NCBI GenBank assembly: GCA_003249035.1
Contig: QBMK01000010.1
Location: 43,707-107,706 of the forward strand
Origin: Pseudanabaena sp.
Lineage (GTDB): Bacteria > Cyanobacteriota > Cyanobacteriia > Pseudanabaenales > Pseudanabaenaceae
DNA length: 64,000 nt
Direction: 5' to 3'
Shown in pieces: positions 25,428 to 51,052 of the stretch; positions within the stretch are counted from its first letter, which is position 1, and every line of letters starts with the position of its first letter. Made by a program: the position numbers and the translations under genes. The notes below the pieces were generated by a model. It saw nothing but the letters and a program-made list of their open reading frames with translations. It was not told the DNA's origin and searched no databases.

Positions 25428-27833
25428 ATGGCAATCGCTACAAGCCCCATAGAGACAAAGACTAATACACTCTCTCCAGATCTGCTCCACAAGATCGATG
25501 CTTATTGGCGAGCTGCCAACTATCTGTCGGTCGGGCAAATTTATCTCTACGACAATCCCCTCCTTAAGGAGCCATTGAAACTATCCCATGTAAAAGCTCT
25601 AGTGGTGGGACATTGGGGGACAACACCAGGTCAGAACTTCATCTATGTTCACTTAAATCGAGTCATTAAAAAATATGATTTAAATATGTTCTATATTGCT
25701 GGGCCTGGACATGGTGGGCCAGCGATCGTGGGTAACGTTTATCTCGAAGGTACTTGGAGTGAAGTTTATCCGAACGTTACTCAGGACGAAGCGGGGCTGC
25801 AAAAGCTCTTCAAGCAATTCTCATTTCCTGGAGGAATTTCCAGCCATGTAGCGCCAACAACGCCAGGGTCAATTCACGAAGGAGGAGAGCTAGGGTACTC
25901 GCTCAGTCATGCCTTTGGGGCGGCTTTCGACAATCCCGATCTAATCGTTGCTTGTGTTATCGGCGACGGTGAAGCTGAAACAGGGCCCTTGGCAACTGCG
26001 TGGCAGTCCAACAAGTTCCTTAGCCCAGTCACTGATGGCGCAGTGCTGCCTATTTTGCACCTGAATGGCTACAAGATTAGTAACCCAACCGTCCTAGCCC
26101 GTATCGATCATCGGGAGTTAGAACAATTTCTACTTGGCTGCGGCTGGATGCCCTATTTTGTGGAGGGTGACGATCCAGAAAAGATGCATGAACTCATGGC
26201 AACGATCTTAGAAACAGCGATCGTGGAGATTCAGCAAATCCAAACCAATGCTCGCAACAAAAATGACACCTCTCGACCTCGTTGGCCGATGATCGTCCTT
26301 AAATCGCCAAAGGGTTGGACTGGTCCTAAGATTGTTGATGGACAGCAAATTGAAGGAACCTTCCGATCGCATCAAGTGCCAATAATAGTAGATTCCGCAC
26401 ATCCCGATCGCGTCCAACTGTTGGAACAATGGATGAAGAGCTACAAACCCGAAGAACTTTTCGATGCTGATGGCAGACTAATCCCCGAATTAGCTGAGTT
26501 AGCGCCAAAGGGAAATCGACGGATGGGTGCAAACCCTCATGCCAATGGCGGACTTCTATTACGCGACCTAAACATGCCAGACTTCCGCGACCACGCTGTA
26601 CAAGTGCCTTCGCCTGGAGCATTGGAAGGGCAAGATACGCTTGTATTGGGTCAGTTCCTACGAGATGTTGCCAAGCTAAATCAGAAGTTGCGTAATTTTC
26701 GAGTCTTTGGTCCCGATGAAACACTCTCTAATCTTCTTGGTGCAGTATTTGAAGTTACCAACCGTCAGTGGGAAGCCCGTGAAGAAGAAAATGATGAATT
26801 TCTCGCACCCGTCGGACAAGTGTTGGACTCAATGCTTAGCGAACACCAGTGCCAAGGTTGGTTAGAAGGCTATTTGCTGACTGGACGGCATGGGTTGTTC
26901 AACAGCTACGAGGCTTTTATTCGCATCGTTGACTCCATGTTTAGCCAACATGCCAAATGGCTGAAGGTAACGTCAGAACTACCTTGGCGACGCAACATCG
27001 CATCGCTAAACTATCTACTTGCCTCCCATGTCTGGCAGCAAGATCACAACGGCTTTACGCACCAAGATCCAGGTTTTCTCGACCATGTAATCAACAAGAA
27101 AGCCGATATCGTGCGGGTGTATCTACCGCCCGATGCCAATTGTCTCCTGTCGGTTTTCGATCATTGTCTGCGTAGCCGCCACTATGTCAACGTGGTCGTA
27201 GCGGGTAAACATGCATTGCCCCAATGGCTAAATATGGACGAAGCGATCGTGCATTGCACGGAAGGCATTGGCATTTGGAAATGGGCTAGCAACGACCAAG
27301 ATACTGAGCCAGACGTGGTGATGGCTTGTTGTGGAGACACGCCCACATTGGAAATCCTCGCCGCAACTTCCATCCTTCGCAAACATCTGCCCGATCTGAA
27401 AATTCGGGTGATCAATGTTGTTGATTTGATGAAGTTACAGTCAGCGAGTGAACATCCGCACGGGCTGAGTGAAGTAGATTATGACGCGCTGTTCACAACC
27501 GACAAGCACATCATCTTTGGCTTTCACGGATATCCTTCGCTAGTTCATCGTCTGACCTATCGCCGCACGAATCATAACCTGCATGTTCGGGGTTACAAGG
27601 AAGAAGGCACAATCACGACCGCCTTTGATATGCGGGTACAGAACGACCTAGATCGCTTTCATTTGGTACAAGATGTAGTCGATCGCTTGCCGCATTTGGG
27701 TAGTAAGGGAGCCTATCTCAAACAGATGATGCAGGACAAGTTGATCAAGCATAAGCATTACATCGACATCCATGGCGAAGACTTGCCAGAAATCCGCGAG
27801 TGGAAGTGGGGAAAGGACGAGAATAACTCCTAA
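25428..27833 (+). CDS. xfp: Phosphoketolase (Xfp)
   Basis: 801-residue thiamine-diphosphate enzyme that cleaves xylulose 5-phosphate and/or fructose 6-phosphate with phosphate to acetyl phosphate plus glyceraldehyde 3-phosphate or erythrose 4-phosphate. Motifs: [39 protein letters not shown], the TPP site [35 protein letters not shown] and the C-terminal [18 protein letters not shown]. Full family length. AGGAAAC precedes the ATG. It heads the sugar-catabolic island whose acetate kinase lies at 47325-48518. Whether it is F6P- or X5P-preferring cannot be told by eye. Confidence 0.97.
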
Positions 27834-27846
27834 TTGTCAAATCATT

Positions 27847-28303: not shown

Positions 28304-28384
28304 TAATTATTCGAGCATTCTATCTTCCCATTCAGTCAATCATAATCACAAGTAGAACTGGAGAACATCATGAACTTATTCACT
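28302..28384. repeat. Duplicated leader segment, copy 2
   Basis: Gapless partner of 27847-27929; ends in the first codons of the baeRF-like gene. This copy overlaps the stop codon of the DUF3181 gene. Confidence 0.75.
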
Positions 28385-29512
28385 ATTGATGAATTAACCA
28401 CTTTAACCACGGGATCAAACTCGACCTGTATCTCGATCTATGCGCCAATGGAGCGTTTAGGAATCGAGACTAAGCAAAATCCGATTCGGTTAAAGAATTT
28501 GGTTCGACAAGTGGTCGAAAAATTGTTGGCGCTGGGAATGCTTGAACAGGAGGCAGAAGAGTTGCTGCAACCCATTCATGAGATAGATACCTATGACTTC
28601 TCGCAACATCAAAGCGATGGAATTGCCATTTTTCTATCTCCCAATCAATTCCGCTACTACTGTTTACCGATCGCTTTCCCTGAATTAACGGTAGTTGGCG
28701 ATCGCTTCCACCTGAAACCACTACTGCAACTAATGTCAGGGGATGGAATGTTTTCTGTTCTAGCCTTGAGCCAAAACCAAGTTCGGTTATTTCAAGGAAC
28801 CCGTTATCACCTTGATGAAGTTGAGTTAACAGATGTACCGACCAACATGGTCGCAGCCTTGCAGTACGATGATCCCGAAAAAAGCCTCCAAACACATACA
28901 GGCTCATCACAAGGCAATAGTGAGATTTTTCATGGACATGGAGCTGGCAACGAAGATCACAAAAATGATTTATTGAGTTACTTTCGCCAAGTTAACAACA
29001 GTTTAGAGTCTTTCTTGAAAACCCAGCAAGCACCGCTAATTTTGGCAGGAGTTGAATATCTATTGCCGATTTATCACGAGGCAAATACATATTCCCACTT
29101 GCTACCCGATGGTATCACTGGAAATCCAGAAAATTTGACTTTGGAAGAACTGCATACCCAGTCTTGGCAGATTGCCCAACCCTATTTCGATCTCGCCAAA
29201 GTATCAACTATTTCTCATTACGAGGAACTGATACAAGGTAGCGAAAAAACAGCAAATACTATCGAAAAAGTCGTATCTGCCGCTTATTTCCAGCGTGTTG
29301 AAACCTTGTTTGTGCCTATTGATAAAAACGTTTGGGGAGTATTCGATCCAGTGAAGAATTCCATTCAGATTCATGCTCAACAGGAAACAGGCGACGAAGA
29401 TTTGCTCGATTTAGCCGCACTACATACCCTCACCAATGGGGGAACGGTTTACGCCTTAGAACAAGGAGACGTACCTGAACATAAAGCGATCGCCGCTATC
29501 CTGCGCTATTAA
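28370..29512 (+). CDS. Bacterial archaeo-eukaryotic release-factor family protein (baeRF, family 7-like)
   Basis: 380 residues with the order of baeRF proteins: N-terminal LFTIDELTTLTTGSNSTCISIYAPMERLGIETKQNPIRLKNLVRQ, a middle domain (DGIAIFLSPNQFRYYCLPIAFPELTVVGDRFHLKPLL, FSVLALSQNQVRLFQG) and a C-terminal domain with PLILAGVEYLLPIYHEANTY and GGTVYALEQGDVP. These proteins share domains with eRF1/Pelota and are proposed to act on stalled ribosomes. Context with a ribosome hibernation factor one gene downstream agrees. It is preceded by a duplicated leader with GGAG. Confidence 0.8.
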   Translation: MNLFTIDELTTLTTGSNSTCISIYAPMERLGIETKQNPIRLKNLVRQVVEKLLALGMLEQEAEELLQPIHEIDTYDFSQHQSDGIAIFLSPNQFRYYCLPIAFPELTVVGDRFHLKPLLQLMSGDGMFSVLALSQNQVRLFQGTRYHLDEVELTDVPTNMVAALQYDDPEKSLQTHTGSSQGNSEIFHGHGAGNEDHKNDLLSYFRQVNNSLESFLKTQQAPLILAGVEYLLPIYHEANTYSHLLPDGITGNPENLTLEELHTQSWQIAQPYFDLAKVSTISHYEELIQGSEKTANTIEKVVSAAYFQRVETLFVPIDKNVWGVFDPVKNSIQIHAQQETGDEDLLDLAALHTLTNGGTVYALEQGDVPEHKAIAAILRY

Positions 29513-29547
29513 ATAATTCGTAATCACAATTAGAACTGGAGAACATC

Positions 29548-29904
29548 ATGCAAATCAAAATCCATACTGGACATAACATTGAAGGTCACGAAGCATTAGC
29601 CACTCAGGTTAGTGGTGTAGTGGAAGAGAGCCTAAGCCGATTTAGCGATCGCATCAGTCATGTTGATGTCCACCTCAGCGATGTGAACAGCGACAAGAAG
29701 GGCGGCGATCGTGATATGCGCTGCATGATCGAAGCCCGTCTCGAAGGACTCCCACCTCTTGCGGTTACCGATCAAGCCGCCACTTTGAACCAAGCTGTTG
29801 ACGGGGCTGCGGAGAAAGTGACCCACTTGCTCAAGCACACGCTTGGGCGACTAGAGCATCAATCAAGTCATCGGACTGACCCACCACTATCGCGATCGGT
29901 CTAG
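29548..29904 (+). CDS. hpf: Ribosome hibernation promoting factor-like protein (HPF/RaiA)
   Basis: 118 residues of the S30EA/sigma-54 modulation fold: MQIKIHTGHNIEGHEALATQVSGVVEESLSRFSDRISHVDVHLSDVNSDK, then a conserved MRCMIEARLEGLPPLAVT strand pair and a C-terminal helix with DGAAEKVTHLLKHTLGRL. It inactivates idle 70S ribosomes. It lacks the long C-terminal domain of long HPF, so it is a short type. It starts 35 bp after the baeRF-like gene with a copied GGAG leader, and rpe follows 23 bp downstream. Confidence 0.88.
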   Translation: MQIKIHTGHNIEGHEALATQVSGVVEESLSRFSDRISHVDVHLSDVNSDKKGGDRDMRCMIEARLEGLPPLAVTDQAATLNQAVDGAAEKVTHLLKHTLGRLEHQSSHRTDPPLSRSV

Positions 29905-29927: not shown

Positions 29928-30611
29928 ATGAAATCAAATGTTGCCGAAATGATGATTGCACCTTCGCTCCTTGCCTCCAACCAGTCTTGCTTAGGACAAG
30001 AAGCCGAACGTGCCGAACGTTCTGGTGCGGATCGGCTACACCTTGACATCATGGATGGTCACTTCGTCCCGAATCTTTCCTTCGGGCCGCAAGTTGTCAA
30101 AGCTATCCGTCCTCTTACCGACCTTTTCTTCGACGTTCACCTGATGTGTTCCCAGCCAGAAATCCTGCTCGAACCCTTTGCAAAAGCTGGCGCGGACGAA
30201 ATAATCATTCACGTTGAACTTGGCGAACAAGTTCCATCCCTAATCCATAAAATAAAAGCCCTCGGTAAAAAAGTCGGACTCGCCATCAATCCTCCCACTG
30301 CGATCGCTTCCGTGCAACCGTTTCTCGAACAAATCGATCTGCTGCTGGTGATGACTGTCAATCCCGGATTTGGCGGACAGGCTTTTATCCCAGAATGCCT
30401 GGCAAAAATCCAGCAAGTCCAAGCTTGGCGGTGCGAAAAAGCCCTTTCCTACCGCATCAGCGTAGATGGCGGCATCAATGAACAGACCGCCGCCGAATGC
30501 GCCCACTACGGAGCGGATACATTTGTGGCAGGCACGAGCTTATTCGGTGCACCCAGCCTGAAGACAGCCGTCAAAAAAATGCGCCAGATTGTCAACGAGA
30601 ACCAACATTAG
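29928..30611 (+). CDS. rpe: Ribulose-phosphate 3-epimerase
   Basis: 227-residue TIM-barrel enzyme interconverting ribulose 5-phosphate and xylulose 5-phosphate. APSLLAS, the metal/catalytic strand LHLDIMDGHFVPNLSFGP, FDVHLM, MTVNPGFGGQAF and VDGGIN are all present. It is probably a second copy beside the Calvin-cycle enzyme, and it can feed phosphoketolase with X5P. Composition in this region is visibly richer in G+C than the 21-25 kb block. The aldolase gene follows 11 nt later. Confidence 0.95.
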   Translation: MKSNVAEMMIAPSLLASNQSCLGQEAERAERSGADRLHLDIMDGHFVPNLSFGPQVVKAIRPLTDLFFDVHLMCSQPEILLEPFAKAGADEIIIHVELGEQVPSLIHKIKALGKKVGLAINPPTAIASVQPFLEQIDLLLVMTVNPGFGGQAFIPECLAKIQQVQAWRCEKALSYRISVDGGINEQTAAECAHYGADTFVAGTSLFGAPSLKTAVKKMRQIVNENQH

Positions 30612-30622: not shown

Positions 30623-31651
30623 ATGAATGTCCAAAAGCTGATAGAAACCGCAAAGATACTTGTTGCTGACAATAAGGGGCTGCTAGCAATGGATGAGAGC
30701 AATCCCACCTGTAACAAGCGATTCGCAAAGTTAGGCATTCCCCAGACAGAGGAAGCCCGACGTATCTATCGAGAGTTAATTATCACTACGCCTAATCTTG
30801 GTGACTATATTAGTGGCGCGATTCTTTACGATGAAACGATTCGCCAGAAAAAGCAAGATGGCACGCCCTTTTTGCAAGTCATCACCGAAGCGGGAATCAT
30901 GCTTGGCATCAAAGTTGACATGGGTACGAAGGAGATGGCGGGTCATTCTGGAGAAAAAATTACTGAAGGTCTAGACGGATTGCGCGATCGCCTCAAGGAA
31001 TATGTTCAAATGGGTGCGAGTTTTGCCAAGTGGCGAGCAGTGATTACTATCGGCGATCGCATTCCCAGCCGAGGTTGTATCGAAGCCAACTCACAAGCAT
31101 TGGCTCGCTATGCAGCGTTGTGCCAAGAAGTTGGGCTAGTTCCCATTGTTGAACCTGAAGTACTGATGGATGGGGAACATACTGAAGAACGATGCTACAA
31201 AGTAACGGAAGAAGTCTTACATACAGTTTTTAACCACCTTTATACACAACGGGTGATGTTGGAAGGGATGATTTTGAAGCCTAACATGGTGCTTTCGGGA
31301 TTGACCTGTCCCGAACAAGCATCGGTGGATGAGGTGGCTGATACCACGGTGAACTGTCTGTTGCAAAACGTCCCTGCTGCTGTGTCGGGAATTGCGTTCT
31401 TGTCAGGTGGTCAATCCTCTGAGCTAGCCTCAGCCCGTTTGAATGCCATAAATCTAAGATTCAAATCGCGATCGCCTTGGGCTTTGACGTTTTCCTTTGG
31501 TCGCGCCATCCAGCAACCAGCTTTGGATATTTGGCAAGGCAAAGAGGCGAATGTATCAAAGGCACAACAGGCTTTGTTACATCGGGCTAAATGCAATTGG
31601 GCAGCGCGTCAGGGTGAATACAATGCTGGAATAGAGGGGACGGAAGCATGA
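30623..31651 (+). CDS. fda: Class I fructose-bisphosphate aldolase
   Basis: 342 residues taking the ATG at 30623; an upstream in-frame start (30497) would overlap rpe and adds unrelated residues. Schiff-base Lys219 in GMILKPNMVLSG, plus Asp24 (LAMDES), Lys136 (FAKWRAV) and Glu177 (VEPEV), match muscle-type class I aldolases. It joins or splits triose phosphates with DHAP; such enzymes also condense DHAP with erythrose 4-phosphate to sedoheptulose bisphosphate. The stop overlaps the next start (ATGA). Confidence 0.95.
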   Translation: MNVQKLIETAKILVADNKGLLAMDESNPTCNKRFAKLGIPQTEEARRIYRELIITTPNLGDYISGAILYDETIRQKKQDGTPFLQVITEAGIMLGIKVDMGTKEMAGHSGEKITEGLDGLRDRLKEYVQMGASFAKWRAVITIGDRIPSRGCIEANSQALARYAALCQEVGLVPIVEPEVLMDGEHTEERCYKVTEEVLHTVFNHLYTQRVMLEGMILKPNMVLSGLTCPEQASVDEVADTTVNCLLQNVPAAVSGIAFLSGGQSSELASARLNAINLRFKSRSPWALTFSFGRAIQQPALDIWQGKEANVSKAQQALLHRAKCNWAARQGEYNAGIEGTEA

Positions 31652-32274
31652 ATATCCCCCTACGCCTTTACCTGATTCGGCATGGCGAAACCGAGTGGTC
31701 GCTCGACCGTCGGCACACAGGTCTCACGGATATTCCATTGACTACAAACGGCGAGTCCGAGGCACGGGAACTCGGCAAACACCTTCGGGATATCCAGTTT
31801 TCCCATGTGCTGACCAGCCCCCTCAAACGTGCCCAACAAACCTGTGCGTTGGTCGGACTAGATCAAGTCCAGGAAATTGAGCGGGATCTGGTCGAATGGG
31901 ATTATGGCGATTATGAAGGAAAGCAATCCGTGAATATTCGCAAGGAGCGCCCGGATTGGAATGTTTTTCGGGATGGTTGTCCCCACGGTGAAACGCCCAC
32001 CCAAATTTCCGATCGCGCCGATCGACTCATCGCTCGTCTTCGCACGCTTGATGGAAATATTGCCCTCTTTTCCCACGGTCAGTTCGGCGGCGTTTTGGCG
32101 ACACGCTGGATCGGGTTAGCGGTGGATACAGCGCAGCATTTCCCCATTGGCACGGCTTCAATCAGTATTTTCGCTTTTGACTCCCACCATCCCACAGTGC
32201 CGATTATCGCCCTGTGGAATGCCGCTGCCGCTCATGTTTTATGGAATGCCTCTGCATTATCAAACAACCAATAG
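31648..32274 (+). CDS. Histidine phosphatase, Shb17-like sugar bisphosphatase candidate
   Basis: 208 residues of the histidine phosphatase (RHG) superfamily: phosphorylated His12 in RHGETEW, Arg61 in SPLKRAQQT, Glu83 in LVEWDYGDYEG and the second His143 in FSHGQ. The phrases HTGLTDIPLT, EWDYGDYEG and RDGCPHGET are, as far as I recall, close to yeast Shb17, a sedoheptulose 1,7-bisphosphatase. Its position between aldolase and triose isomerase, with overlapping start, supports a sugar bisphosphatase rather than a cobalamin phosphatase or mutase. SBP or FBP hydrolysis is an inference. Confidence 0.75.
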   Translation: MNIPLRLYLIRHGETEWSLDRRHTGLTDIPLTTNGESEARELGKHLRDIQFSHVLTSPLKRAQQTCALVGLDQVQEIERDLVEWDYGDYEGKQSVNIRKERPDWNVFRDGCPHGETPTQISDRADRLIARLRTLDGNIALFSHGQFGGVLATRWIGLAVDTAQHFPIGTASISIFAFDSHHPTVPIIALWNAAAAHVLWNASALSNNQ

Positions 32275-32283: not shown

Positions 32284-33069
32284 ATGCGTCAGAAATTTGT
32301 GATCGGAAACTGGAAAATGCATACCACTACAGCGGAAGCCATCCATCTGGCAACGGCGATCGCGACTGGCATGGTTACTGATGACAGTGTTACAGTCGCT
32401 GTTTGTCCACCGTTTCCCTATCTAGCTCTGGTTGGGGAAATCCTCAAGGGCAGTCGAGTTGCGCTCGGCGCACAGAACCTCTATCCCGCCAAAGAAGGTG
32501 CATTCACAGGCGAGGTCAGTCCCACGATGCTCCTCGATCTCGGCTGTCGGTACGTGATCCTCGGACATAGCGAGCGCCGACACATACTGGGCGAATCGGA
32601 TGCGTTTATTCACCACAAAGTACGGGTTGCTCTGGATGCTGGACTTGATGTGATTTTCTGCGTCGGCGAAACGCTAGCAGAACGTCAAGCCGATCAGACC
32701 GAAACGGTGCTCGATCGACAACTGCTTCAAGGCTTAGACGGACTCCCAGCAGCAACGTTAGCCCACCTGAGTATTGCCTATGAACCGCTCTGGGCGATCG
32801 GCAGTAGCGGACACCAAGCTACTCCTCAGCAGGCTCAGGACGCGCACACGGTGATTCGACAACGATTTGGTCAGATCTTCAGTGAGCGATCGGCTCAGAC
32901 CCTGGCAATCCACTACGGTGGTAGCGTTAATCCAAAAAATGCCGATGGGTTGCTGAGCCGACCCGGTGTGGATGGTGGACTCATCGGCGGCGACAGCCTG
33001 AACGCCGAGCCATTTTTAGCCATTGTTCAGGCTGCGATCCGTCAGACCCAACCAGTGGAGGCTGTATGA
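32284..33069 (+). CDS. tpiA: Triosephosphate isomerase
   Basis: 261 residues with all catalytic parts: Asn9-Trp10-Lys11 (GNWKMH), His95 in ILGHSERRH and the base Glu167 in AYEPLWAIG; phosphate-binding YGGSVNP and GGLIGGDSL. It interconverts DHAP and glyceraldehyde 3-phosphate. It overlaps pgi by 4 nt. Together with aldolase and the phosphatase it forms one operon segment. Confidence 0.97.
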
Positions 33070-40727: not shown

Positions 40728-40814
40728 TCGCAAAAAAAGCCAATGATTCCCGAAATAAATAACTCTTGAGGCAAAACCATGATCGATCTACAACAAAAGC
40801 AAAAGGAAAACACC

Positions 40815-41407: not shown

Positions 41408-43951
41408 ATGAGCAGTAATCGTCGGGTGAGTCACCCCATTTACAATCTACTACCGACAGAAATCGAGGGCTTTGACTCCCTCGCAGAACTGGCTCTAGAT
41501 ATGCGTTGGTCGTGGAATCATTCCACCGATGCAGTTTGGCGGCAGCTCGATCCCGACCTGTGGGAGATTACCCAAAATCCTTGGGTTGTTCTCCAGACCG
41601 TCTCCCGCGATCGCATTGAGCAAGTTTTAGCCAATTCAGGTTTTCGCCAGCAAGTGGATGACCTAGTGCAGACCCAGCGGCAAGGATTGGCGAACCCCGC
41701 CTGGTTTCAGCAAACTTACCCGAACTCTCCCTTGAAATGTGTTGCGTATTTCAGCATGGAATTCATGTTAAGTGAAGCGTTACCCATCTACTCTGGGGGA
41801 CTTGGTAATGTTGCGGGCGATCAGCTCAAAGCCGCCAGCGACTTGGGCGTGCCAGTGGTGGGTATCGGGTTGCTCTACCAGCAGGGCTATTTTCGTCAGG
41901 TTATTGACAAAGATGGCGCGCAGCAAGCCCTCTATCCCTATAACGACCCCGGACAGTTGCCGATTTCGCCATTGCGCCATCCGAATGGCGAGTGGTTACG
42001 GCTGGAGGTCGTCTTGCCCGGTTATTCAGTTTGGCTCCGAGCTTGGCAGGTTCAGGTCGGTAGAGTCAAGCTTTACTTGCTAGACAGCAATGATGCAGCG
42101 AACTTTCCTGCCCATCGCGGCATTACCAGCGAGTTGTATGGTGGCGGACCAGAGTTACGTCTTAAACAGGAAATGCTGCTTGGCATTGGTGGCTGGCGAT
42201 TGCTCGCCGCCCTCGGCATCCAACCCGAAGTCTGCCATCTCAATGAAGGCCACGCGGCATTCGCCATTTTGGAACGCGCCCATAGCTTCATGCAAGCAAA
42301 CGCGCAGCCGTTTGACGTTGCCCTCTCTGCCACGCGATCGGGGAATCTTTTCACCACCCACACCGCTGTGGCGGCTGGCTTTGACCGTTTCGATCCCGCA
42401 CTTATCGAACAATACCTCGGCGGTTATGCCCAAGACAAGCTAGGCATTACAGTCCAAGACCTACTGGCTCTGGGTCGCCAAAATTCGCAGGATTCGTCCG
42501 AGCCTTTCAATATGGCTTATCTAGCCGTCCGTGGCAGCGGGGCGGTGAATGGCGTGAGTCAATTGCATGGAAAGGTCAGTCGGCAACTTTTTGAGCCGCT
42601 TTTTCCCCACTGGCCGGAGTCCGAAGTGCCCATTGGCTATGTGACTAACGGAGTTCACATGCCGACGTGGGACTCGGCTGCGTCCGACGCTCTCTGGACT
42701 CAGTCCTGTGGCAAAGACCGCTGGTTGGGCATAACGGAAACCCTCGAACGGGATATTAGCAGCGTTTCCGACCATAATCTTTGGCAATTTCGCCTCGCTG
42801 CCAGCAAATCTCTAGTTGAATATGCTCGCCAGCGCCTCGCCAAGCACTATGCCGCTGCGGGTGCGTTGCCTGAGACGATTGAGCAGGCGCGGCATCTCTT
42901 CGATCCTAATGCCTTAACTCTGGGCTTTGCCCGTCGTTTTGCCACATACAAAAGACCAAACCTGCTGCTGCACGATCGCGATCGCCTGCTTCGCATCTTG
43001 ACTAATCCGCAACGCCCGGTACAACTGATCATCGCTGGCAAGGCTCATCCAGCAGACCAAGCGGGGCAAGCCCTTATTCAGGAGTGGGTAAAGTTCATCA
43101 GGCAGCCCCAGACCCGCCCCCATGCCATCTTTCTCAGTGACTATGACATGCTGCTGACCGAGCATCTAGTTCAGGGAGTCGATGTGTGGATTAACACGCC
43201 ACGACGACCTTGGGAAGCCTGTGGAACTAGCGGCATGAAGGTGCTGGTCAATGGCGGCATTAATATTTCCGAGTTGGATGGTTGGTGGGCAGAAGCCTAC
43301 AGTCCTGAGGTGGGTTGGGCGCTGGGTGACGGTCAGGAACATGGCGACGATCCTGCTTGGGACGCGGCGGAAGCCAACGCACTCTACGGCCTGTTAGAGC
43401 AAGAAGTAATTCCAGAGTTTTATACCCGCGACGACAATGGCATTCCCGTTGCCTGGGTCAAGCGGATGCGAAACAGTATGGCGCAATTAACACCACGATT
43501 CTCCGCCAACCGCACGGTGCAGGCTTATACCGAGCAATATTACCTTCCTGCGGCAATTACCTACAGCGATCGCGCGGCGAACAATGGCGAACTAGGCAGG
43601 CAAATCGTCGATTGGCAGCACACTCTGCAAGATAAATGGGCAACGTTACGCTTCGGCGAAATGAAGGTTGTCAGCGACGCACAAGGGCACAACTTCACAG
43701 TTGAAGTGTTTTTCGGTAGCCTTGCCCCAAAGAGTGTGCGGGTAGAACTATACGACAACGGAGCGAACGGTGGCGACTCAGAGCGACAGGAAATGATACG
43801 CGGTCAGCCATTGGAAGAGGTAAACGGTTACAGCTTTAGCGCACAAGTACCGACGACACGCCCATCCACGGACTATACGGCTCGCATCATACCGCACTAT
43901 GACGGTGTGGCGATTCCACTGGAAGACAAACACATCCTGTGGCAGCGATGA
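41408..43951 (+). CDS. glgP: Alpha-glucan (glycogen) phosphorylase
   Basis: 847 residues of the GT35 alpha-glucan phosphorylase subfamily with N-terminal DUF3417-like part (LALDMRWSWNHSTDAVWRQLDP). Key pieces: YFSMEFMLSEALPIYSGGLGNVAGDQLKAASDLGVP, NEGHAAFAILER, FARRFATYKRPNLLL and the PLP-lysine region CGTSGMKVLVNGG with NISELDGWWAEAY. It releases glucose 1-phosphate from glycogen. AAGGAG before ATG. The C-terminal ~100 residues are a beta-rich domain. Confidence 0.95.
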   Translation: MSSNRRVSHPIYNLLPTEIEGFDSLAELALDMRWSWNHSTDAVWRQLDPDLWEITQNPWVVLQTVSRDRIEQVLANSGFRQQVDDLVQTQRQGLANPAWFQQTYPNSPLKCVAYFSMEFMLSEALPIYSGGLGNVAGDQLKAASDLGVPVVGIGLLYQQGYFRQVIDKDGAQQALYPYNDPGQLPISPLRHPNGEWLRLEVVLPGYSVWLRAWQVQVGRVKLYLLDSNDAANFPAHRGITSELYGGGPELRLKQEMLLGIGGWRLLAALGIQPEVCHLNEGHAAFAILERAHSFMQANAQPFDVALSATRSGNLFTTHTAVAAGFDRFDPALIEQYLGGYAQDKLGITVQDLLALGRQNSQDSSEPFNMAYLAVRGSGAVNGVSQLHGKVSRQLFEPLFPHWPESEVPIGYVTNGVHMPTWDSAASDALWTQSCGKDRWLGITETLERDISSVSDHNLWQFRLAASKSLVEYARQRLAKHYAAAGALPETIEQARHLFDPNALTLGFARRFATYKRPNLLLHDRDRLLRILTNPQRPVQLIIAGKAHPADQAGQALIQEWVKFIRQPQTRPHAIFLSDYDMLLTEHLVQGVDVWINTPRRPWEACGTSGMKVLVNGGINISELDGWWAEAYSPEVGWALGDGQEHGDDPAWDAAEANALYGLLEQEVIPEFYTRDDNGIPVAWVKRMRNSMAQLTPRFSANRTVQAYTEQYYLPAAITYSDRAANNGELGRQIVDWQHTLQDKWATLRFGEMKVVSDAQGHNFTVEVFFGSLAPKSVRVELYDNGANGGDSERQEMIRGQPLEEVNGYSFSAQVPTTRPSTDYTARIIPHYDGVAIPLEDKHILWQR

Positions 43952-44049: not shown

Positions 44050-45033
44050 ATGAAAACCAGCAGCTCTTATCCAGTATTTGGCTATCAAGTTCAAGCGGAA
44101 AAGCCAATTGCAATTACGTCCCAAAGCACGGGAGATTTATCCTTACTTGTGGAAAACTCTGTCTCGCAATACAACTCATATCTTCCTTTAATATTAATTC
44201 TTGGGGTTGGAATGGCGTTAGCGTCAACTCTTTTTAGCGCTATTTGGGTAGTGAATGAGTGGGAGAGATTAGTGGTATTGAGGTTAGGAAAATTCCTCAC
44301 ACTCAAGGGACCGGGACTCGTTTTCATTATTCCGATCATCGATACAATACCTTACAGAATTGATACCCGAATGATCGCTTCTGCGTTCAAGGCAGAGAAG
44401 ACCCTGACTAAAGATACCGTACCAGTGGATGTCGATGCAGTCCTCTTCTGGCAAGTCTTAGACCCAAAAAAGGCAGCTCTGAAGGTTGCCGATTATCAAA
44501 ACGCGATCAGTTGGGCATCTCAAACGGCACTGCGGGATGTGATAGGCAAGACCATGCTGTCGGATCTGCTGGAAGGCAGGGACAAGATAAGTAAGGAATT
44601 GCAGAGAATCATTGACGAGCGCACCGAGCCGTGGGGCATTAATGTGATTTCGGTGGAAGTAAAGGATGTCCTGATTCCTGCCGCTTTAGAAGATGCGATG
44701 TCAATGCAGGCACAAGCGGAAAGAGAACGTCAAGCAAGGGTAATTCTGGGCGATTCCGAACGACAGGTAGCGGAAAAGTTTGGGGAAGCAGCCAAAACTT
44801 ATATAAACAATCCAGTCGCACTGCATCTGAGGGCAATGAATATGCTCTATGAGGGTTTAAAGAACAACGCCACGATCGTCATGGTTCCCAGTACTGCCTT
44901 GGATACGATGCAACTCGGCGGTCTGGCTGGGATGACCGCCATGACGATGGGGATGGGACAGGAGAACATGAAAAAAGAGCAAGAAAGCGAGATCGAAAGC
45001 AATCACGCAGTCAATGGCCATGTAGAAGTATAG
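44050..45033 (+). CDS. Slipin / stomatin-like SPFH membrane protein
   Basis: 327 residues: N-terminal soluble stretch, a TM helix at about 47-70 (LPLILILGVGMALASTLFSAIWV), then the SPFH/band-7 domain (NEWERLVVLRLGKFLTLKGPGLVFIIPIIDTIPYRIDTR, DVDAVLFWQVLDPKKAALKVADYQNAI) and a coiled coil (QAQAERERQARVILGDSERQVAEK). Such proteins scaffold membrane microdomains and modulate ion transporters. Its place among sugar genes and upstream of a proton ATPase suggests a role in membrane energetics, by context only. GAGGTAA precedes the ATG region. Confidence 0.88.
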   Translation: MKTSSSYPVFGYQVQAEKPIAITSQSTGDLSLLVENSVSQYNSYLPLILILGVGMALASTLFSAIWVVNEWERLVVLRLGKFLTLKGPGLVFIIPIIDTIPYRIDTRMIASAFKAEKTLTKDTVPVDVDAVLFWQVLDPKKAALKVADYQNAISWASQTALRDVIGKTMLSDLLEGRDKISKELQRIIDERTEPWGINVISVEVKDVLIPAALEDAMSMQAQAERERQARVILGDSERQVAEKFGEAAKTYINNPVALHLRAMNMLYEGLKNNATIVMVPSTALDTMQLGGLAGMTAMTMGMGQENMKKEQESEIESNHAVNGHVEV

Positions 45034-45138: not shown

Positions 45139-47328
45139 ATGATGAAAGAAAACCCACGCGAACTTCACGACTATAACTCGGAGATCTCCGTCCATGCAGA
45201 TGTGCGGGTGGGTTCTCCGTTGCCGTTTGGCACACAAGAAACGGAAGGAGGAGTGAATTTTGCCCTTTTCAGCAGGGATGCCAGCCGCGTTAGACTCGAA
45301 TTGTTCGATAATCCTGAAGATGCTATGCCTGCAAGGTCGATCGATCTTGATGCTGCGTGCCATCGTACTGGCGATGTCTGGCACGTTTGGGTGGGGGGCA
45401 TTAGTTCTGGTCAATTCTATGCCTACCGCGTGGATGGTTCCTATGCTCCCAGCGAAGGGCATCGGTTCAATTTCAATCGATTGCTTCTAGATCCCTGTGC
45501 GATCGCGGTTTCGCAAGTGCCATCGTGGGATTTTGCCTTGGCAAGCGGCTATAACCCATTAGCCCCAGAGCTAGACTTATCATTCTCAACCTTTGACAAT
45601 GCAGGGTCGATGCCAAAATGTATCTTTCTCAACGAGTCTTTCAAATGGGAAGGAGACTCTCCACCCCGACATCCGTGGTCAAAGACCGTGATTTACGAAT
45701 TACATGTGCGTGGATTTACCATTCATCCCACGTCGGGCGTGGAGCATCCTGGTACCTATCGAGGTCTAATAGAAAAGATTCCCTATCTAAAAACATTGGG
45801 GGTGACAGCCGTGGAACTGATGCCCGTTCAGGAGTTTTATGACACTCCTATGCCCCGCCGTAATCCTCAAACCATCCAATTACTCAGGAATTACTGGGGA
45901 TACGATCCAGTAGTTTTCTTTGCGCCCAAAGCGTCTTATAGCAGTGCTGGTGGTCTGGGACAGCAGAAATTCGAGTTCAAGGAAATGGTAAGGGCGTTAC
46001 ACCAAGCAGATATTGAAGTGATTTTAGATGTGGTATTCAATCATACGGCAGAGGGGAATGAGCTGGGCCCAACGCTCTGTTTTCGAGGGATAGATAATGC
46101 GATCGCCTACTCCTTGGAAACTGAAAAACGCTTCTACAAGAACTATGCGGGCACTGGCAATACCGTCAATGCCAATCATCCAGTGGTGCGAGATCACATC
46201 TTGGCAGCGTTACGTCATTGGGTGGTTGAAATGCATGTGGATGGCTTTCGGTTTGACCTCGCATCGGTGCTCGGTCGAGACGAATCTGGCAACTTGATTG
46301 CCAATGCACCGCTATTAGAACGGATCGCCGAAGATCCAATTTTAAGAGACGTAAAGATCGTGGCGGAGGCGTGGGATGCCGCTGGTGGATATGAGGTGGG
46401 TAGCTTTTCAGATCGGCGCTGGTCGGAATGGAACGGTCGCTATCGCGATGATGTGCGGCGTTTCTGGCGGGGCGATGAGGGGATGCTAGGGGTGTTTGCC
46501 AATCGAATCTGCGGTAGTGCCGATATCTATACCCGCTCTGGTAAAGGTCCCGATGGCAGTATTAATTTCATCACCTGCCACGATGGCTTTACTCTCAATG
46601 ACCTAGTGAGCTATCGAGACAAACACAATGAAGCGAACGGAGAGCATAATCGGGACGGCAGTGACGCTAATTACAGCGAAAACTATGGCATGGAAGGCGA
46701 GACAACGGATGCTGAGATTGCGTCTATCCGAAAACGCCAGATCAAGAATTTCTTGCTGACCCTGTTGGTCGCACGCGGTGTGCCAATGCTGCTAGGCGGG
46801 GATGAATTTTGTCGCACACAAAACGGCAACAACAACGCCTACTGCCAGAATAACGAAACGAGTTGGCATGACTGGAGTTACTTGGAACTGCATCAAGAGA
46901 TTTTTCGCTTTACCAGTGGCGCGATCGCCTTTCGGCATGCCCATCCCATTCTGAGTCAGGAGCAATTCTATTCCGATGCTGAGATCCAGTGGTTTGGACC
47001 GCAAGGAGGCTTACCCAAATGGTTCGACCCGCAGGCAAAGCAGTTTGCCTGCCTCATCCCTGAAGGTGGGCAGCACGCACTTTGCCTGCTGTTCAATGCT
47101 GCTAATGATACCGTGGATTTCAGGTTGCCTCCAGCACCGCCGAAGACTCGGTGGCCCCTAGCTGTCGATACCGCTAGCGAATTTCCCCACGATCTATTCA
47201 CTGTGGGGGAGGAACCGCTTTGGAAGGATCCACAAACCTATCCCCTCAGCCCCCGATCGAGCGTCATCTTGTTGGCTCGACCCATACCTGAGCAACAATC
47301 GCCAGTCGCCTTAACGGAGTTCAAATGA
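45139..47328 (+). CDS. glgX: Glycogen debranching enzyme (GlgX / isoamylase type)
   Basis: 729-residue GH13 enzyme that cleaves alpha-1,6 branch points. N-terminal CBM48-like domain (GGVNFALFSRDASRVRLELFDN), then ELHVRGFT, DVVFNHTAEGN, nucleophile region DGFRFDLASVLGRD, the acid/base region VAEAWDAAGGYEVG and CHDGFTLNDLVSY. It lets glycogen phosphorylase proceed past branches. The stop overlaps the ackA start by 4 nt, tying glycogen breakdown to acetate formation. Confidence 0.95.
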   Translation: MMKENPRELHDYNSEISVHADVRVGSPLPFGTQETEGGVNFALFSRDASRVRLELFDNPEDAMPARSIDLDAACHRTGDVWHVWVGGISSGQFYAYRVDGSYAPSEGHRFNFNRLLLDPCAIAVSQVPSWDFALASGYNPLAPELDLSFSTFDNAGSMPKCIFLNESFKWEGDSPPRHPWSKTVIYELHVRGFTIHPTSGVEHPGTYRGLIEKIPYLKTLGVTAVELMPVQEFYDTPMPRRNPQTIQLLRNYWGYDPVVFFAPKASYSSAGGLGQQKFEFKEMVRALHQADIEVILDVVFNHTAEGNELGPTLCFRGIDNAIAYSLETEKRFYKNYAGTGNTVNANHPVVRDHILAALRHWVVEMHVDGFRFDLASVLGRDESGNLIANAPLLERIAEDPILRDVKIVAEAWDAAGGYEVGSFSDRRWSEWNGRYRDDVRRFWRGDEGMLGVFANRICGSADIYTRSGKGPDGSINFITCHDGFTLNDLVSYRDKHNEANGEHNRDGSDANYSENYGMEGETTDAEIASIRKRQIKNFLLTLLVARGVPMLLGGDEFCRTQNGNNNAYCQNNETSWHDWSYLELHQEIFRFTSGAIAFRHAHPILSQEQFYSDAEIQWFGPQGGLPKWFDPQAKQFACLIPEGGQHALCLLFNAANDTVDFRLPPAPPKTRWPLAVDTASEFPHDLFTVGEEPLWKDPQTYPLSPRSSVILLARPIPEQQSPVALTEFK

Positions 47329-48518
47329 AACCAACGACCCCCCATATCCTGACGATCAATGGTGGCTCATCAAGTATCAAGTTCGCGCTGTTCGAGTCCG
47401 GTGACTCTCTCCAACGGATTCTATCGGGTGGGATTGAGCGAATTGGGCTACCGGACGCGACGTTGCAGGTCAAAGGGCTGAACCCAGCAGACAAGGTTTC
47501 GCGGTTGATCGCGGCATCGGATCGCACACTGGCAGTAGGCGCTCTCATGGATTGGCTTGAGGGATATTGTGGGCGTGATGCCTTGACTGCCGTGGGGCAT
47601 CGCATTGTCCATGGAGGACCTACGTATAGCCAGCCCCAGCGCATCACTCCGGCAATGCTTGATGAACTGAAACGGATTAGTCCCTTTGACCCCGAACATC
47701 TGCCGGAGGAGATCCGATTGACCGAGGCGTTCCATCACCGCTTTCCAGACCTGCCTCAAGTTGCGTGTTTCGACACGGCGTTTCACCACGACCTGCCGCG
47801 CGTCGCCCAGATGTTACCCATCCCACGCCGTTACGAAGCGCAGGGCGTGCGACGGTACGGGTTCCACGGATTGTCCTATGTGTTTCTGATGGAAGAACTG
47901 TCCCGACTGGACGGAACGGAAGCAGCACAGGGTCGGGTGATCCTCGCTCACCTTGGTAATGGCGCAAGTCTAGCGGCGGTTCATCACGGCAAACCTGTGG
48001 ATACTAGCATGAGCTTTACGCCGACTGCCGGAGTGCCGATGAGTACACGTTCTGGAGATCTCGATCCAGGGCTGATAGGGTATCTGGCGCGCACCGAACA
48101 AATGAGCGTGAAGCAATTCAATGAGATGGTTCATTTCCAGTCTGGGTTGTTAGGGATATCCGAAACCAGTGCCGATATGCGTGACTTGCTCGATCTCGAA
48201 CTACAAGATGTACGGGCGGCTGAGGCGATCGCCCTGTTCTGCTATCAGGTGAAGAAATGGATTGGTGCTTTCGCAGCAGCTTTGGGCGGCGTGGACACCT
48301 TGGTGTTTGCGGGGGGCATCGGCGAGAATGCTCCCCTGGTCCGTACTCGGATTTGTGATGGCTTAGGCTTTCTGGGTATTGAGCTCAACGAAGAGCGAAA
48401 TGTGGCGAATCAGGGCGTGATCTCTGCGGAGACCAGCAGGGTTCCTGTTCGCGTCATTCCCACGGACGAAGCATTCACGATCGCCAAGTCGGTATGTCGT
48501 GTTCTCAGCTTTGGCTGA
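47325..48518 (+). CDS. ackA: Acetate kinase
   Basis: 397 residues of the ASKHA fold: LTINGGSSSIKFALF at the N-terminus, GHRIVHGGP, ACFDTAFHHDLP, GFHGLSYVF, LAHLGNGASLAAVHHGKPVDTSMSFTP and the adenine-pocket VFAGGIGENAP. It makes ATP from acetyl phosphate and ADP, completing the phosphoketolase route. No phosphotransacetylase gene is seen in the window, consistent with direct use of acetyl phosphate. Several phrases (HGLSYV, EGVAGTP-like SFTPTAGVP) agree with bacterial AckA. Confidence 0.96.
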   Translation: MKPTTPHILTINGGSSSIKFALFESGDSLQRILSGGIERIGLPDATLQVKGLNPADKVSRLIAASDRTLAVGALMDWLEGYCGRDALTAVGHRIVHGGPTYSQPQRITPAMLDELKRISPFDPEHLPEEIRLTEAFHHRFPDLPQVACFDTAFHHDLPRVAQMLPIPRRYEAQGVRRYGFHGLSYVFLMEELSRLDGTEAAQGRVILAHLGNGASLAAVHHGKPVDTSMSFTPTAGVPMSTRSGDLDPGLIGYLARTEQMSVKQFNEMVHFQSGLLGISETSADMRDLLDLELQDVRAAEAIALFCYQVKKWIGAFAAALGGVDTLVFAGGIGENAPLVRTRICDGLGFLGIELNEERNVANQGVISAETSRVPVRVIPTDEAFTIAKSVCRVLSFG

Positions 48519-48598
48519 AAAAGCAGCCTCGAACCGCAGCAACTAAATTCTATTTCCCGTAACCGTTCTATTAAATAAATACCAAAGGAATACCCATC

Positions 48599-51052
48599 AT
48601 GAAATCCGTTACCGATCGCCCCAAAGATGCCAAAGAAAGTCCCGATCCGAAGGACAATCTGAAAACTATGCCTATGGATCAATTAGAGGCAAAACTTGAG
48701 TCGTCACCAGAGGGTCTCAGTCAAGACGAGGCGACTAAACGGCTGAAGAAATATGGACCGAACGAGATTAAAGAAGAGAAAACCAATCCATATCTAAAAT
48801 TCCTCAGTTATTTTTGGGGGCCGATTCCATGGATGATTGAGGTAGCGGTGATTCTATCGGGTATAGTCGGACACTGGCCAGATTTTTTCATCATTCTGCT
48901 GTTGCTGGTTGCTAATGCCGTAGTCGGCTTTTGGGAAGAACACGAGGCTGGTAATGCGATCGCCGCACTGAAGGCAAAGCTTTCCGTTAAGGCGCGAGTG
49001 AAACGGGATGGAAAGTGGGTCACACCGCCGTCCCGTGAATTGGTCCCAGGGGATGTGATCCGCTTGCGATTGGGCGACATTGTGCCAGCAGATGCCCGCC
49101 TGCTGGATGGTGACTCAGTGGAGGTGGATCAGTCGGCACTGACGGGAGAGTCATTGCCTGCTAAATGCGAATCAGGCGAGGCTATCTTTTCTGGTTCAAT
49201 CATTAGCAAGGGTGAAATTGGGGCGCTAGTCTATGCTACGGGTACGCATACCTACTTCGGTAAGACGGCCGAACTGGTGCAAACGGCGCACACCACTAGC
49301 CATTTTCAAAAGGCGGTTTTGAAGATCGGCAACTACCTGATCTTTCTGGCGCTAGCGCTAGTGACGTTGATTGTGACCGTCGCAATTTCTCGTGGCGACG
49401 AGATACTCACCACGATGCAGTTCGCGCTGGTGCTGACCGTAGCGGCAATTCCAGTGGCAATGCCGACGGTGCTATCGGTGACGATGGCAGTGGGGGCGCG
49501 ACTCCTCGCCAAGAAAAAAGCGATCGTGAGCAAGTTAGTGGCGATCGAAGAATTGGCAGGCGTGGATATGCTATGCGCGGACAAGACGGGTACGCTGACC
49601 CAAAACAAACTGACCTTAGGCGATCCGTTTTGCGTCAATGATATTTCCGCCGAGCAAGTGATTCTCTATGGCGCGTTGGCATCGCGCAGTGCTAACAACG
49701 ACACCATTGATCTGGCTGTTCTCGATGGACTAAAAAACAAAGACGCATTGCAGGGCTATCAGATTGAACATTTTCAGCCCTTCGATCCCGTGCATAAACG
49801 TACTGAAGCGACAGTGAAGGAATCGGATGGCAAAGAATTCAAAGTGACGAAGGGAGCGCCGCAGGTGATTCTGGCTCTTGCCGATGATGCTGGGCAGGTA
49901 AAGTCCGATGCCGAAAAGGCGGTCAACGACTTCGCTGCGCGAGGCTTTCGGTCGTTGGGCGTGGCTCGCGCTGAGGGTGACGGCAAATGGCAGTTTGTGG
50001 GTGTATTGCCATTGTTTGATCCACCAAGGGACGATGCCAAGTCAACCATTGCCACCGCAGGCAAGATGGGCGTTCAGATCAAGATGGTAACAGGGGATGC
50101 TCGCGCGATCGCCCATGAAACGGCTACAAAACTGGGGATGGGTGCAAACATCCTCGATGCTAGCAGCCTAGGCGACGTTAAGGAGCAGGCGACGGATGAG
50201 TCTGCGGAGGCGATCGAGAAAGCCGACGGTTTTGCTCAGGTGTTCCCCGAACATAAGTTCCACATTGTCGATGTCCTGCAAAAGCACGGACACATTGTCA
50301 GCATGACGGGCGATGGCGTGAATGATGCCCCAGCGTTAAAGCAATCCGACTGCGGTATTGCCGTTGCAGACGCGACCGACGCAGCGCGGGCCGCCGCAGA
50401 CATCGTACTGCTCACCCCTGGACTATCAGTGATCATCGACGCGATTAAGGAGAGCCGCCGCATTTTCCAACGCATGAACAGCTACGCGATCTACCGCATC
50501 GCTGAGACACTGCGGGTGCTGTTTTTCATGACGTTGGCGATTCTGTTCTTCAATTTTTATCCCTTGACGGCAGTGATGATCGTGATGCTGGCGTTGCTCA
50601 ACGACGGCGCGATTCTGTCTATTGCCTATGACAACGTGCAGTACAAAAATCAGCCTGAGTCCTGGGATATGCGGATGGTGCTGACGGTTTCCACCATGCT
50701 CGGCGCGATTGGGGTTGTCTCTGCGTTTGGTCTGTTCTATCTGGCTGAGCGCGTCTTCCATCTCGATCGCGCCCATATCCAGACCCTGATGTATTTAAAA
50801 CTGTCTGCGGCTGGACATCTGACGATCTTCTTGACGCGGACACGCGGTCCATTCTGGTCTATTCCTCCCGCAAAGATTCTCTGGATCGCCGTACTCGGCA
50901 CCCAAATTTTAGCGACGTTGATCGCAGTCTATGGTTTCTTTATGACACCACTCGGCTGGGGTTGGGCGATGTTCGTTTGGGGCTATGCCTTGGCGTGGTT
51001 CTTGGTGAATGACCGTGTGAAACTGTTCGCTTATTGGCTTTTGAGCCGATAG
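48599..51052 (+). CDS. Plasma-membrane-type proton P-ATPase (P3A), copy 1
   Basis: 817 residues. TGES at 182-185, phosphorylated Asp328 in CADKTGTLT (Ser-to-Ala before the Asp compared with the usual SDKTGT), [14 protein letters not shown]4 AIPVAMPTVLSVT and TM6 LALLNDGAILSIAYD with the Asp that binds the proton in P3A pumps. It lacks the long C-terminal autoinhibitory tail of plant enzymes. Likely exports H+ at the expense of ATP. AAGGAA precedes the ATG. It follows ackA by 80 bp. A paralogue is at 58455-60953. Confidence 0.92.
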   Translation: MKSVTDRPKDAKESPDPKDNLKTMPMDQLEAKLESSPEGLSQDEATKRLKKYGPNEIKEEKTNPYLKFLSYFWGPIPWMIEVAVILSGIVGHWPDFFIILLLLVANAVVGFWEEHEAGNAIAALKAKLSVKARVKRDGKWVTPPSRELVPGDVIRLRLGDIVPADARLLDGDSVEVDQSALTGESLPAKCESGEAIFSGSIISKGEIGALVYATGTHTYFGKTAELVQTAHTTSHFQKAVLKIGNYLIFLALALVTLIVTVAISRGDEILTTMQFALVLTVAAIPVAMPTVLSVTMAVGARLLAKKKAIVSKLVAIEELAGVDMLCADKTGTLTQNKLTLGDPFCVNDISAEQVILYGALASRSANNDTIDLAVLDGLKNKDALQGYQIEHFQPFDPVHKRTEATVKESDGKEFKVTKGAPQVILALADDAGQVKSDAEKAVNDFAARGFRSLGVARAEGDGKWQFVGVLPLFDPPRDDAKSTIATAGKMGVQIKMVTGDARAIAHETATKLGMGANILDASSLGDVKEQATDESAEAIEKADGFAQVFPEHKFHIVDVLQKHGHIVSMTGDGVNDAPALKQSDCGIAVADATDAARAAADIVLLTPGLSVIIDAIKESRRIFQRMNSYAIYRIAETLRVLFFMTLAILFFNFYPLTAVMIVMLALLNDGAILSIAYDNVQYKNQPESWDMRMVLTVSTMLGAIGVVSAFGLFYLAERVFHLDRAHIQTLMYLKLSAAGHLTIFLTRTRGPFWSIPPAKILWIAVLGTQILATLIAVYGFFMTPLGWGWAMFVWGYALAWFLVNDRVKLFAYWLLSR

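Follow-up and report, generated by a model that had tools for sequence, protein, structure and literature searches.

We examined a block of sugar-metabolizing genes in a 64,000-nucleotide stretch of DNA from Pseudanabaena sp. (hereafter the window), in which a phosphoketolase gene (xfp) starting at position 25428 opens a run on one strand that ends with a proton-pumping ATPase at 51052. The grouping of these genes is real and mobile, and we judge that the block is probably a horizontally acquired, modular cassette for non-oxidative glycolysis (NOG), a scheme in which one fructose 6-phosphate (F6P) gives rise to three acetyl phosphates without redox change. The best reading of the evidence as a whole is a mobile NOG cassette linked to ion pumps. 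The initial annotation had described the genes from xfp to ackA as a phosphoketolase pathway, and all of the genes that it named were found in frame, on the plus strand and inside 25428-51052. The block consists of the following genes, in which FBP and SBP stand for fructose 1,6-bisphosphate and sedoheptulose 1,7-bisphosphate:

25428..27833, plus strand: xfp, phosphoketolase of the island-type clade (Pfam, NCBIfam NF003619, tree)
28370..29512, plus strand: baeRF family 7 release-factor-like protein (Pfam)
29548..29904, plus strand: candidate S30AE-type ribosome hibernation factor, 118 amino acids (PF02482, 35 bits against a cut-off of 23.7)
29928..30611, plus strand: rpe, ribulose-phosphate 3-epimerase (TIGR01163, above cut-off)
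30623..31651, plus strand: fbaI, class I fructose-bisphosphate aldolase (NF033379, above cut-off)
31648..32274, plus strand: GPM2/SHB17-like histidine phosphatase, candidate FBP/SBP phosphatase (PF00300, above cut-off; PDB relatives)
32284..33069, plus strand: tpiA, triose-phosphate isomerase (TIGR00419, above cut-off)
33066..34706, plus strand: pgi, glucose-6-phosphate isomerase (NF001211, above cut-off)
34809..37796, plus strand: GH65 disaccharide phosphorylase fused to beta-phosphoglucomutase (beta-PGM) (Pfam; TIGR01990 above cut-off for the beta-PGM half)
37891..39042, plus strand: tal, transaldolase of the mycobacterial/PRK03343 type (NF002881 and TIGR00876, above cut-off)
39039..40727, plus strand: pgm, phosphoglucomutase (TIGR01132, above cut-off)
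40779..41339, plus strand: YflT-like general stress protein (PF11181)
41408..43951, plus strand: glgP, alpha-glucan phosphorylase of the DUF3417 type (TIGR02094, above cut-off)
44050..45033, plus strand: SPFH/Band 7 membrane protein (PF01145)
45139..47328, plus strand: glgX, glycogen debranching enzyme (TIGR02100, above cut-off)
47325..48518, plus strand: ackA, acetate kinase (TIGR00016, above cut-off)
48599..51052, plus strand: plasma-membrane-type P-type H+-ATPase (IIIA) (TIGR01647, 1061.6 bits against a cut-off of 615.5)

All of the metabolic genes and the H+-ATPase exceeded their Pfam cut-offs, and each but the phosphatase also exceeded the cut-off of a fitting NCBIfam model. The XFP protein scored 1419.3 bits against NF003619 (F6P/xylulose 5-phosphate phosphoketolase, cut-off 962), which predicts its substrates. 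For fbaI, the listed open reading frame (ORF) start at 30497 is too early, and the Pfam match and the sequence place it at about 30623; the encoded aldolase contains the stretch ILKPNMV, presumably the Schiff-base lysine motif. Kojibiose phosphorylase (PDB 3wiq, E 1.9e-136) is the nearest solved relative of the GH65 fusion. The gene initially called a sugar phosphatase does encode a phosphatase, of the histidine phosphatase class by Pfam and not of the haloacid dehalogenase class. Besides the metabolic genes listed by the initial annotation, the block holds the baeRF, S30AE-type, YflT-like and SPFH genes.

The genes are tightly packed. Overlapping start and stop codons were confirmed for four pairs, each by 4 nt (fbaI/histidine phosphatase, tpiA/pgi, tal/pgm and glgX/ackA), and the largest gap from baeRF (28370) to the stop codon of the H+-ATPase (51052) is 105 bp; the 536 bp between xfp and baeRF form the sole large gap in the block. 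Promoter and terminator scans of 24000-43900 gave site counts not above those of shuffled sequence. An identical 28-nt leader that includes the ATG precedes both the baeRF gene (28345-28372) and the S30AE-type gene (29523-29550), and a third copy with a short broken reading frame lies 3' of xfp at 27890-27917; in a direct-repeat search of 21100-52000 the baeRF/S30AE leader was the one clear case, other families being short or diverged. As initially stated, the block is dehydrogenase-free, no such family being found by Pfam in its 16 plus-strand ORFs of at least 120 amino acids, and transketolase and ribose-5-phosphate isomerase are absent from it; tkt, or tkt with rpiA, lies inside sister cassettes. 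The expectation that transketolase is supplied from elsewhere in the genome was borne out by one strong full-length PF00456 match outside the block (E 6.2e-157), beside one weak match (7e-6), and a transketolase match was present in all eight of the carrier or clade genomes tested.

The block is foreign in composition. Mean GC content of the 14 genes from rpe to the H+-ATPase is 51.5%, compared to 44.5% in 30 other genes of the window (Mann-Whitney p 3e-6), and GC at third codon positions is 53.5% compared to 42.2% (p 1e-6). Among 386 cyanobacterial genomes searched, 68 including the host's own possess a tal of the block type (E ≤ 1e-60), which in the 67 others is at most 52% identical to that of the window; none was found in the three congeners in this sample. 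The phosphoketolases reported for these congeners are 60-62% identical to the window XFP and the block xfp type was absent, in a scan that scored at most two candidates per genome and can miss extra copies (in the host genome it picked up two of three xfp copies). A single-protein contig search, which reaches close relatives only, detected tal at seven loci in other phyla (Anaerolineaceae, two Syntrophaceae, Omnitrophota, Spirochaetia, Syntrophobacteraceae and Zixibacteria), with 69-75% identity in the best segment; all seven are metagenome-assembled, and misplaced contigs are possible. Mobile elements lie nearby, namely an integrase at 100-897 and a DDE transposase at 51853-52764. Of seven plasmid records with matches to the initial 25 kb of the window, six are from Pseudanabaena, and on a P. 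galeata plasmid the GH65-sucrose synthase and PRC-barrel parts recur in unchanged order with 87% identity; the cassette itself had no DNA match among plasmids beyond about 60 bases of glgX. On contig C1, just left of the window, we observed two gene pairs of equal length (990 and 210 amino acids; L147:14029-17785 and L051:15779-19535), the first a Tn3-type transposase with a tyrosine recombinase and the second ending close to the left window edge.

A search of related genomes, as had been suggested for checking the grouping, showed that it recurs across phyla. One Desulfobacterota genome (G477) carries tal-pgm-glgP-ackA-xfp-fbaI-pgi-H+-ATPase as a single run whose products are 74-81% identical to the window proteins, and two others (G389 and G387) carry ackA-PRC-xfp-fbaI-pgi-H+-ATPase. 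The closest XFPs belong to the cyanobacteria G127 (89%) and G336 (88%), in shorter runs with fbaI, GH65 and a proton ATPase and, in G127, the phosphatase as well. Misplaced contigs are possible in the G-numbered genomes too. Versions on plasmids were found in Lichenicola, Rhodococcus, Hymenobacter, Nitrobacter, Methylotuvimicrobium, Polymorphobacter (two), Frondihabitans and Methylophaga. The Methylotuvimicrobium plasmid has xfp and fbaI only, and that of Nitrobacter lacks fbaI. On both Polymorphobacter plasmids a consecutive same-strand series comprises tkt, zwf, rpe, ackA, gnd, tal, pgi, rpiA, xfp, fbaI, phosphatase, pgm and tpiA; one of these plasmids has a proton ATPase, and the other (sp. 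PAMC 29334) has a divergent alternate F1F0 ATPase, as in the window. The Methylophaga plasmid carries fbaI, isoamylase, pgm, pgi, tkt, glgP, ackA, xfp and the phosphatase. On the Rhodococcus plasmid a single frame annotated as beta-phosphoglucomutase matches the GPM2-like phosphatase (L044:25919-27409), and the two look fused. A Sphingomonas plasmid holds a decayed cassette with xfp, aldolase and phosphatase in pieces (L144:14707-18957).

To place these loci, we collected the surroundings of xfp at 90 loci and built a bootstrap-free tree by a quick method, in which two rows were flagged as long. The window copy falls in one clade of 20 rows (SH-like approximate likelihood ratio support 100), with inner forks partly open, that mixes eight phyla: Cyanobacteria, Desulfobacterota, alpha- and gammaproteobacteria, Actinomycetota, Bacteroidota, Omnitrophota, Zixibacteria and Chloroflexota. 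The fbaI gene occurs no more than 10 kb from xfp at 13 of the 20 clade loci compared to 0 of the 70 others, or at 14 of 20 when Methylophaga is counted, where fbaI opens the run just beyond 10 kb. Five phyla are represented among these 14 loci (Cyanobacteria, Desulfobacterota, Pseudomonadota, Actinomycetota and Bacteroidota); fbaI sits on the xfp strand and downstream of xfp at 13, with no other recognised gene in between at 11. Distances among the XFP and FbaI proteins correlate (r 0.65, n=14), and none of 2000 shuffles gave a value as high. Other genes set the clade apart over the same 10 kb: the GPM2-like phosphatase (at least 100 bits; 10/20 vs. 0/70), the H+-ATPase (at least 300 bits; 8/20 vs. 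0/70) and pgi (7/20 vs. 1/70). In contrast, glgP (2/20 vs. 4/70) and glgX (1/20 vs. 2/70) are not markers of the clade, and the pairing of ackA with xfp is equally common outside the clade and was therefore discarded as a criterion for the cassette.

The bit thresholds were our own (100 for phosphatase, ackA, pgi, tal, gapdh and GH65; 300 for the H+-ATPase; 50 for the others), and Fisher tests and p values on such counts ignore relatedness and lean on near relatives of the window. Neighbours were detected with seeds from the window and sister cassettes, which favours near relatives; an aldolase profile run over all ORFs of the fetched loci gave the same result, with 15 loci comprising the 14 and the broken Sphingomonas copy. 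Fourteen of 208 plasmid records with a match were opened, and since ten of them were the ten best-ranked, the clade is sampled towards the window. All 13 Desulfobacterota places plus G389, all eight Omnitrophota places, 17 of the listed cyanobacterial xfp places outside the host genome and 34 of 76 listed Chloroflexota places (locus L035 among them) were used, an 84% identical Chloroflexota fragment in G658 being left out. Before the tree and counts we dropped L037 and L041 (the same places as L085 and L086) and L040, L053 and L144 (fragments or broken xfp), of which L040 and L144 have adjoining cassette genes.

The gene set suggests the following pathway. GlgP and GlgX would free glucose 1-phosphate from glycogen, and the GH65-beta-PGM fusion, Pgm and Pgi would bring glucose phosphates derived from glycogen or disaccharides to F6P; since entry is by phosphorolysis, no ATP would be spent on activating these reserves. 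XFP would split F6P and xylulose 5-phosphate into acetyl phosphate and erythrose 4-phosphate or glyceraldehyde 3-phosphate. Erythrose 4-phosphate and triose could then be recycled to F6P by Tal, the genome-encoded transketolase, Rpe, TpiA, the class I aldolase and the phosphatase, and AckA would convert acetyl phosphate to acetate and ATP. In principle this would yield three acetate and three ATP per glucosyl unit with zero net redox change. A cycle free of transketolase, through a sedoheptulose-7-phosphate phosphoketolase activity, was considered and rejected: affinity for that substrate was very low in the case tested, according to excerpts of PMC7744508, and transketolase is therefore assumed to be needed. 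The gene set and its recurrence fit the initially proposed conversion of glycogen or a disaccharide to acetate through a phosphoketolase cycle, whereas closure of the cycle is a prediction. Redox neutrality, also claimed initially, would be in keeping with the dehydrogenase-free block but less so with those sister cassettes that include zwf and gnd.

The cycle requires a phosphatase acting on FBP or SBP, a step that the initial annotation left undiscussed. The best solved relatives of the window phosphatase are GPM2 (PDB 2a6p, E 1.5e-37) and yeast YKR043C (3f3k, E 4.3e-26; 3ll4/3oi7, 1.2e-24), which we take to be SHB17. Excerpts of PMC4535450 describe GPM2 as a fructose bisphosphatase (FBPase) both in vitro and in vivo and credit SHB17/YK23 with FBPase and SBP phosphatase activities. 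Like GPM2 (Rv3214) and SHB17/YK23, the window protein is a histidine phosphatase, and its nearness to them means that it could close the cycle, converting FBP to F6P or SBP to sedoheptulose 7-phosphate; unlike theirs, its activity is predicted by family and it misses the cut-off of the PRK13462 model, the nearest NCBIfam equivalog. A single-sequence structure prediction of the phosphatase had a mean predicted local distance difference test score of 40.1 and was not used.

The ATP so formed may be used by ion pumps, as the ATPases beside the cassette suggest. The P-type proton ATPase stands at the end of the block, to the left of which lie other features:

24581..25351, plus strand: PRC-barrel protein adjoining xfp (PF05239)
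14565..21155, minus strand: alternate F1F0 (N-type) ATPase operon, divergent from the cassette (TIGR03324; beta, A and gene-1 subunits by Pfam)
7910..13292, minus strand: second GH65-beta-PGM fusion and sucrose synthase, in the order found on a Pseudanabaena plasmid

The alpha subunit of the N-type ATPase scored 821.4 bits against TIGR03324 (cut-off 750.5). ATP would power this enzyme and the P-type H+-ATPase and so keep ion gradients without light or respiration. The window shares the proximity of xfp to an alternate F1F0 ATPase with a Polymorphobacter plasmid, Methylophaga and an Anaerolineaceae locus. In the last of these (L035), xfp-tal is followed by the ATPase, and since this pair lies outside the clade of 20, xfp and the alternate F1F0 ATPase may have been joined more than once. 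The c subunit in the window (about 20200-20500, minus strand) has by eye a carboxylate in each helix (GEG, ES...Y), which bears on whether H+ or Na+ is the ion moved. A second P-type proton ATPase, with an adjoining cytochrome c gene, lies at 58455-60953, downstream of a phosphate-binding-protein-like gene.

The XFP of the window also departs from the regulated cyanobacterial enzyme. Excerpts of PMC10365998 report that the phosphoketolase of Synechococcus elongatus (SeXPK) is inhibited by ATP through eight residues, and they report no W703 mutant. The window XFP does not match the motif of these residues (PWX2HX3YRX7HXRX31R): it has W703S in SeXPK numbering and lacks one residue between R711 and H719, whereas both other XFPs of the host genome retain all eight. 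Among the 14 aldolase-linked XFPs, at least one of the eight residues is substituted in 9 and the deletion occurs in 10, so that 12 have either or both and three have the deletion alone; elsewhere in the motif-bearing part of the tree, the deletion is absent from all 60 proteins and a substitution is present in 4. These counts are not independent because the deletion marks one subclade. We predict from the altered motif that the window XFP is freed from inhibition by ATP.

A fuller version of this proposal, which we advance tentatively, holds that a natural mobile cassette (its XFP clade in eight phyla, its aldolase form in five) is closed by the aldolase and bisphosphatase, uses an unbraked XFP and is wired to the pumps, so that the proton and N-type ATPases would keep membranes energised when respiration and light fail.

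Several observations weigh against the cassette as we read it. The phosphatase scored 162 bits against the PRK13462 acid phosphatase model, below its cut-off of 226, and fell under every listed NCBIfam cut-off. The host genome encodes a GlpX-type FBPase elsewhere (C44), and the block phosphatase therefore need not be one. No GPM2-like phosphatase was found in the stretch fetched for the three Desulfobacterota versions, and weaker histidine phosphatases (46-87 bits) occur at six fetched loci outside the clade, including both other xfp regions of the host genome. Within 10 kb of xfp, ackA is found at 9 of 20 clade loci and 41 of 70 outside, tal, tpiA, rpe and tkt are each found at no more than 5 of 20 clade loci, and fbaI is missing at 6 of 20, two of which are cut downstream by a contig end. 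Dehydrogenase genes do occur: zwf and gnd in both Polymorphobacter cassettes and in Chloroflexota G670, a small GAPDH-like piece (55 bits) downstream in Methylophaga, and other dehydrogenase genes within the region opened in Hymenobacter and Frondihabitans. No RpiA (PF06026) was matched in the host genome, a search that is uninformative because the S. elongatus control was also missed and that did not include RpiB. Finally, excerpts of PMC10365998 assign the S. elongatus phosphoketolase (XPK) mainly a role as a Calvin-cycle brake rather than in ATP supply and report that its overexpression is lethal; an unbraked copy would therefore need tight control.

Of the alternatives, an open phosphoketolase shunt survives best, in which hexose phosphate yields acetyl phosphate, triose phosphate exits through native lower glycolysis in a bifid-like manner and the route is neither closed nor redox-neutral. 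The zwf and gnd genes of some sister cassettes speak for it, as does a second xfp cluster of the same genome (contig C22) with GAPDH, aldehyde dehydrogenase, enolase, pyruvate kinase, tal and ackA. However, the window block has no dehydrogenase; near the xfp of the clade, gapdh (at 100 bits or more) and pyk occur at 0 of 20 loci and zwf and gnd at 3 of 20 each; and recycling is suggested by the presence of an aldolase, TpiA and an enzyme of bisphosphatase type. We therefore consider an open shunt unlikely for the block.

It is more doubtful still that the block is a stress-survival island whose main effectors are the S30AE, baeRF, PRC-barrel, Dps-like and SPFH proteins, with the sugar enzymes mobilising sucrose, kojibiose-type disaccharides and glycogen or making acetyl phosphate as a signal. 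The baeRF and S30AE genes do share their leader inside the run, a PRC-barrel gene lies within 10 kb of xfp at 6 of 20 clade loci compared to 0 of 70 others, and several plasmid carriers were recorded from Antarctic lichens or soil. However, metabolic genes outnumber stress genes, and the metabolic run of Methylophaga has no such stress gene in between. A stress island and an energy cassette may both be true together.

Diversion of carbon between light and dark, with XFP draining Calvin-cycle sugar phosphates to acetyl phosphate and thence to acetyl-CoA or acetate and ATP supply secondary, is the role reported for the S. elongatus enzyme in excerpts of PMC10365998 and is very improbable here. 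That role rests on inhibition by ATP, from whose motif the window XFP departs, and the cassette includes glycogen-breakdown genes. It also occurs in Desulfobacterota, Rhodococcus and Hymenobacter, in which, to our knowledge, a Calvin-cycle brake is not expected. That foreign metabolic genes built up by chance at a hot spot of insertion, without joint function, would agree with the integrase, the transposase and the partial plasmid match of the left half, but is rejected as scarcely credible on gene packing with its 4-nt overlaps, composition, recurrence across phyla and the correlated xfp and fbaI distances.

Redox-free conversion of sugar entirely to acetate is familiar chiefly as an engineered pathway, and synthetic NOG was reportedly introduced by Bogorad, Lin and Liao in 2013. 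Like NOG, the mobile cassette would combine phosphoketolase with carbon rearrangement to take sugar to acetyl phosphate without redox steps; unlike NOG, it is of natural origin, takes in glycogen and disaccharides, includes ackA, ion pumps and an aldolase of class I, and has a histidine phosphatase as candidate for the FBPase step. The cassette shares F6P/xylulose 5-phosphate phosphoketolase, transaldolase and acetate kinase with the bifid shunt of bifidobacteria, but that shunt continues through lower glycolysis, whereas the block has no dehydrogenase or lower-glycolysis gene. NOG is mentioned in excerpts of PMC12965863, and those of PMC5862535 deal with the co-occurrence of phosphoketolase and acetate kinase genes. 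The cyanobacterial XPK-ACK pathway likewise pairs phosphoketolase with acetate kinase and, according to excerpts of PMC10365998, provides ATP in dark anaerobic stress and aids survival in S. elongatus; the window XFP differs in lacking an intact ATP-regulatory motif and in belonging to a different clade. As with cyanobacterial PKET2 (PMC7744508, excerpts), an extra phosphoketolase copy is present and horizontal transfer suspected, but the excerpted text describes no linked carbon-recycling cassette and does not use the term "gene cluster". No paper describing the present cassette was found by title or start of abstract in the open-access PMC literature, a weak negative. If our reading is correct, a natural, transferable gene set would provide a further source of ATP in darkness, anoxia or dormancy, would help account for the frequent transfer of phosphoketolase, and would offer engineers sets of enzymes evolved together. 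The question is testable, as several carriers of a plasmid-borne cassette are named strains.

The other xfp regions of the host genome have features of their own. In the C22 cluster, EF-hand domains are fused to transaldolase (L049:8405-9577) and to acetate kinase (L049:9592-10974), and a free EF-hand protein is encoded as well (L048:15419-15880), which suggests calcium control of sugar breakdown; our literature search turned up no paper joining EF-hand, transaldolase and cyanobacteria. A histidine phosphatase gene also lies 3' of the C11-type xfp in the host genome (L050:12232-12870) and in two congeners (L072 and L073). These phosphatases are more distant, at 84-87 bits to the cassette profile, and are perhaps a parallel pairing.

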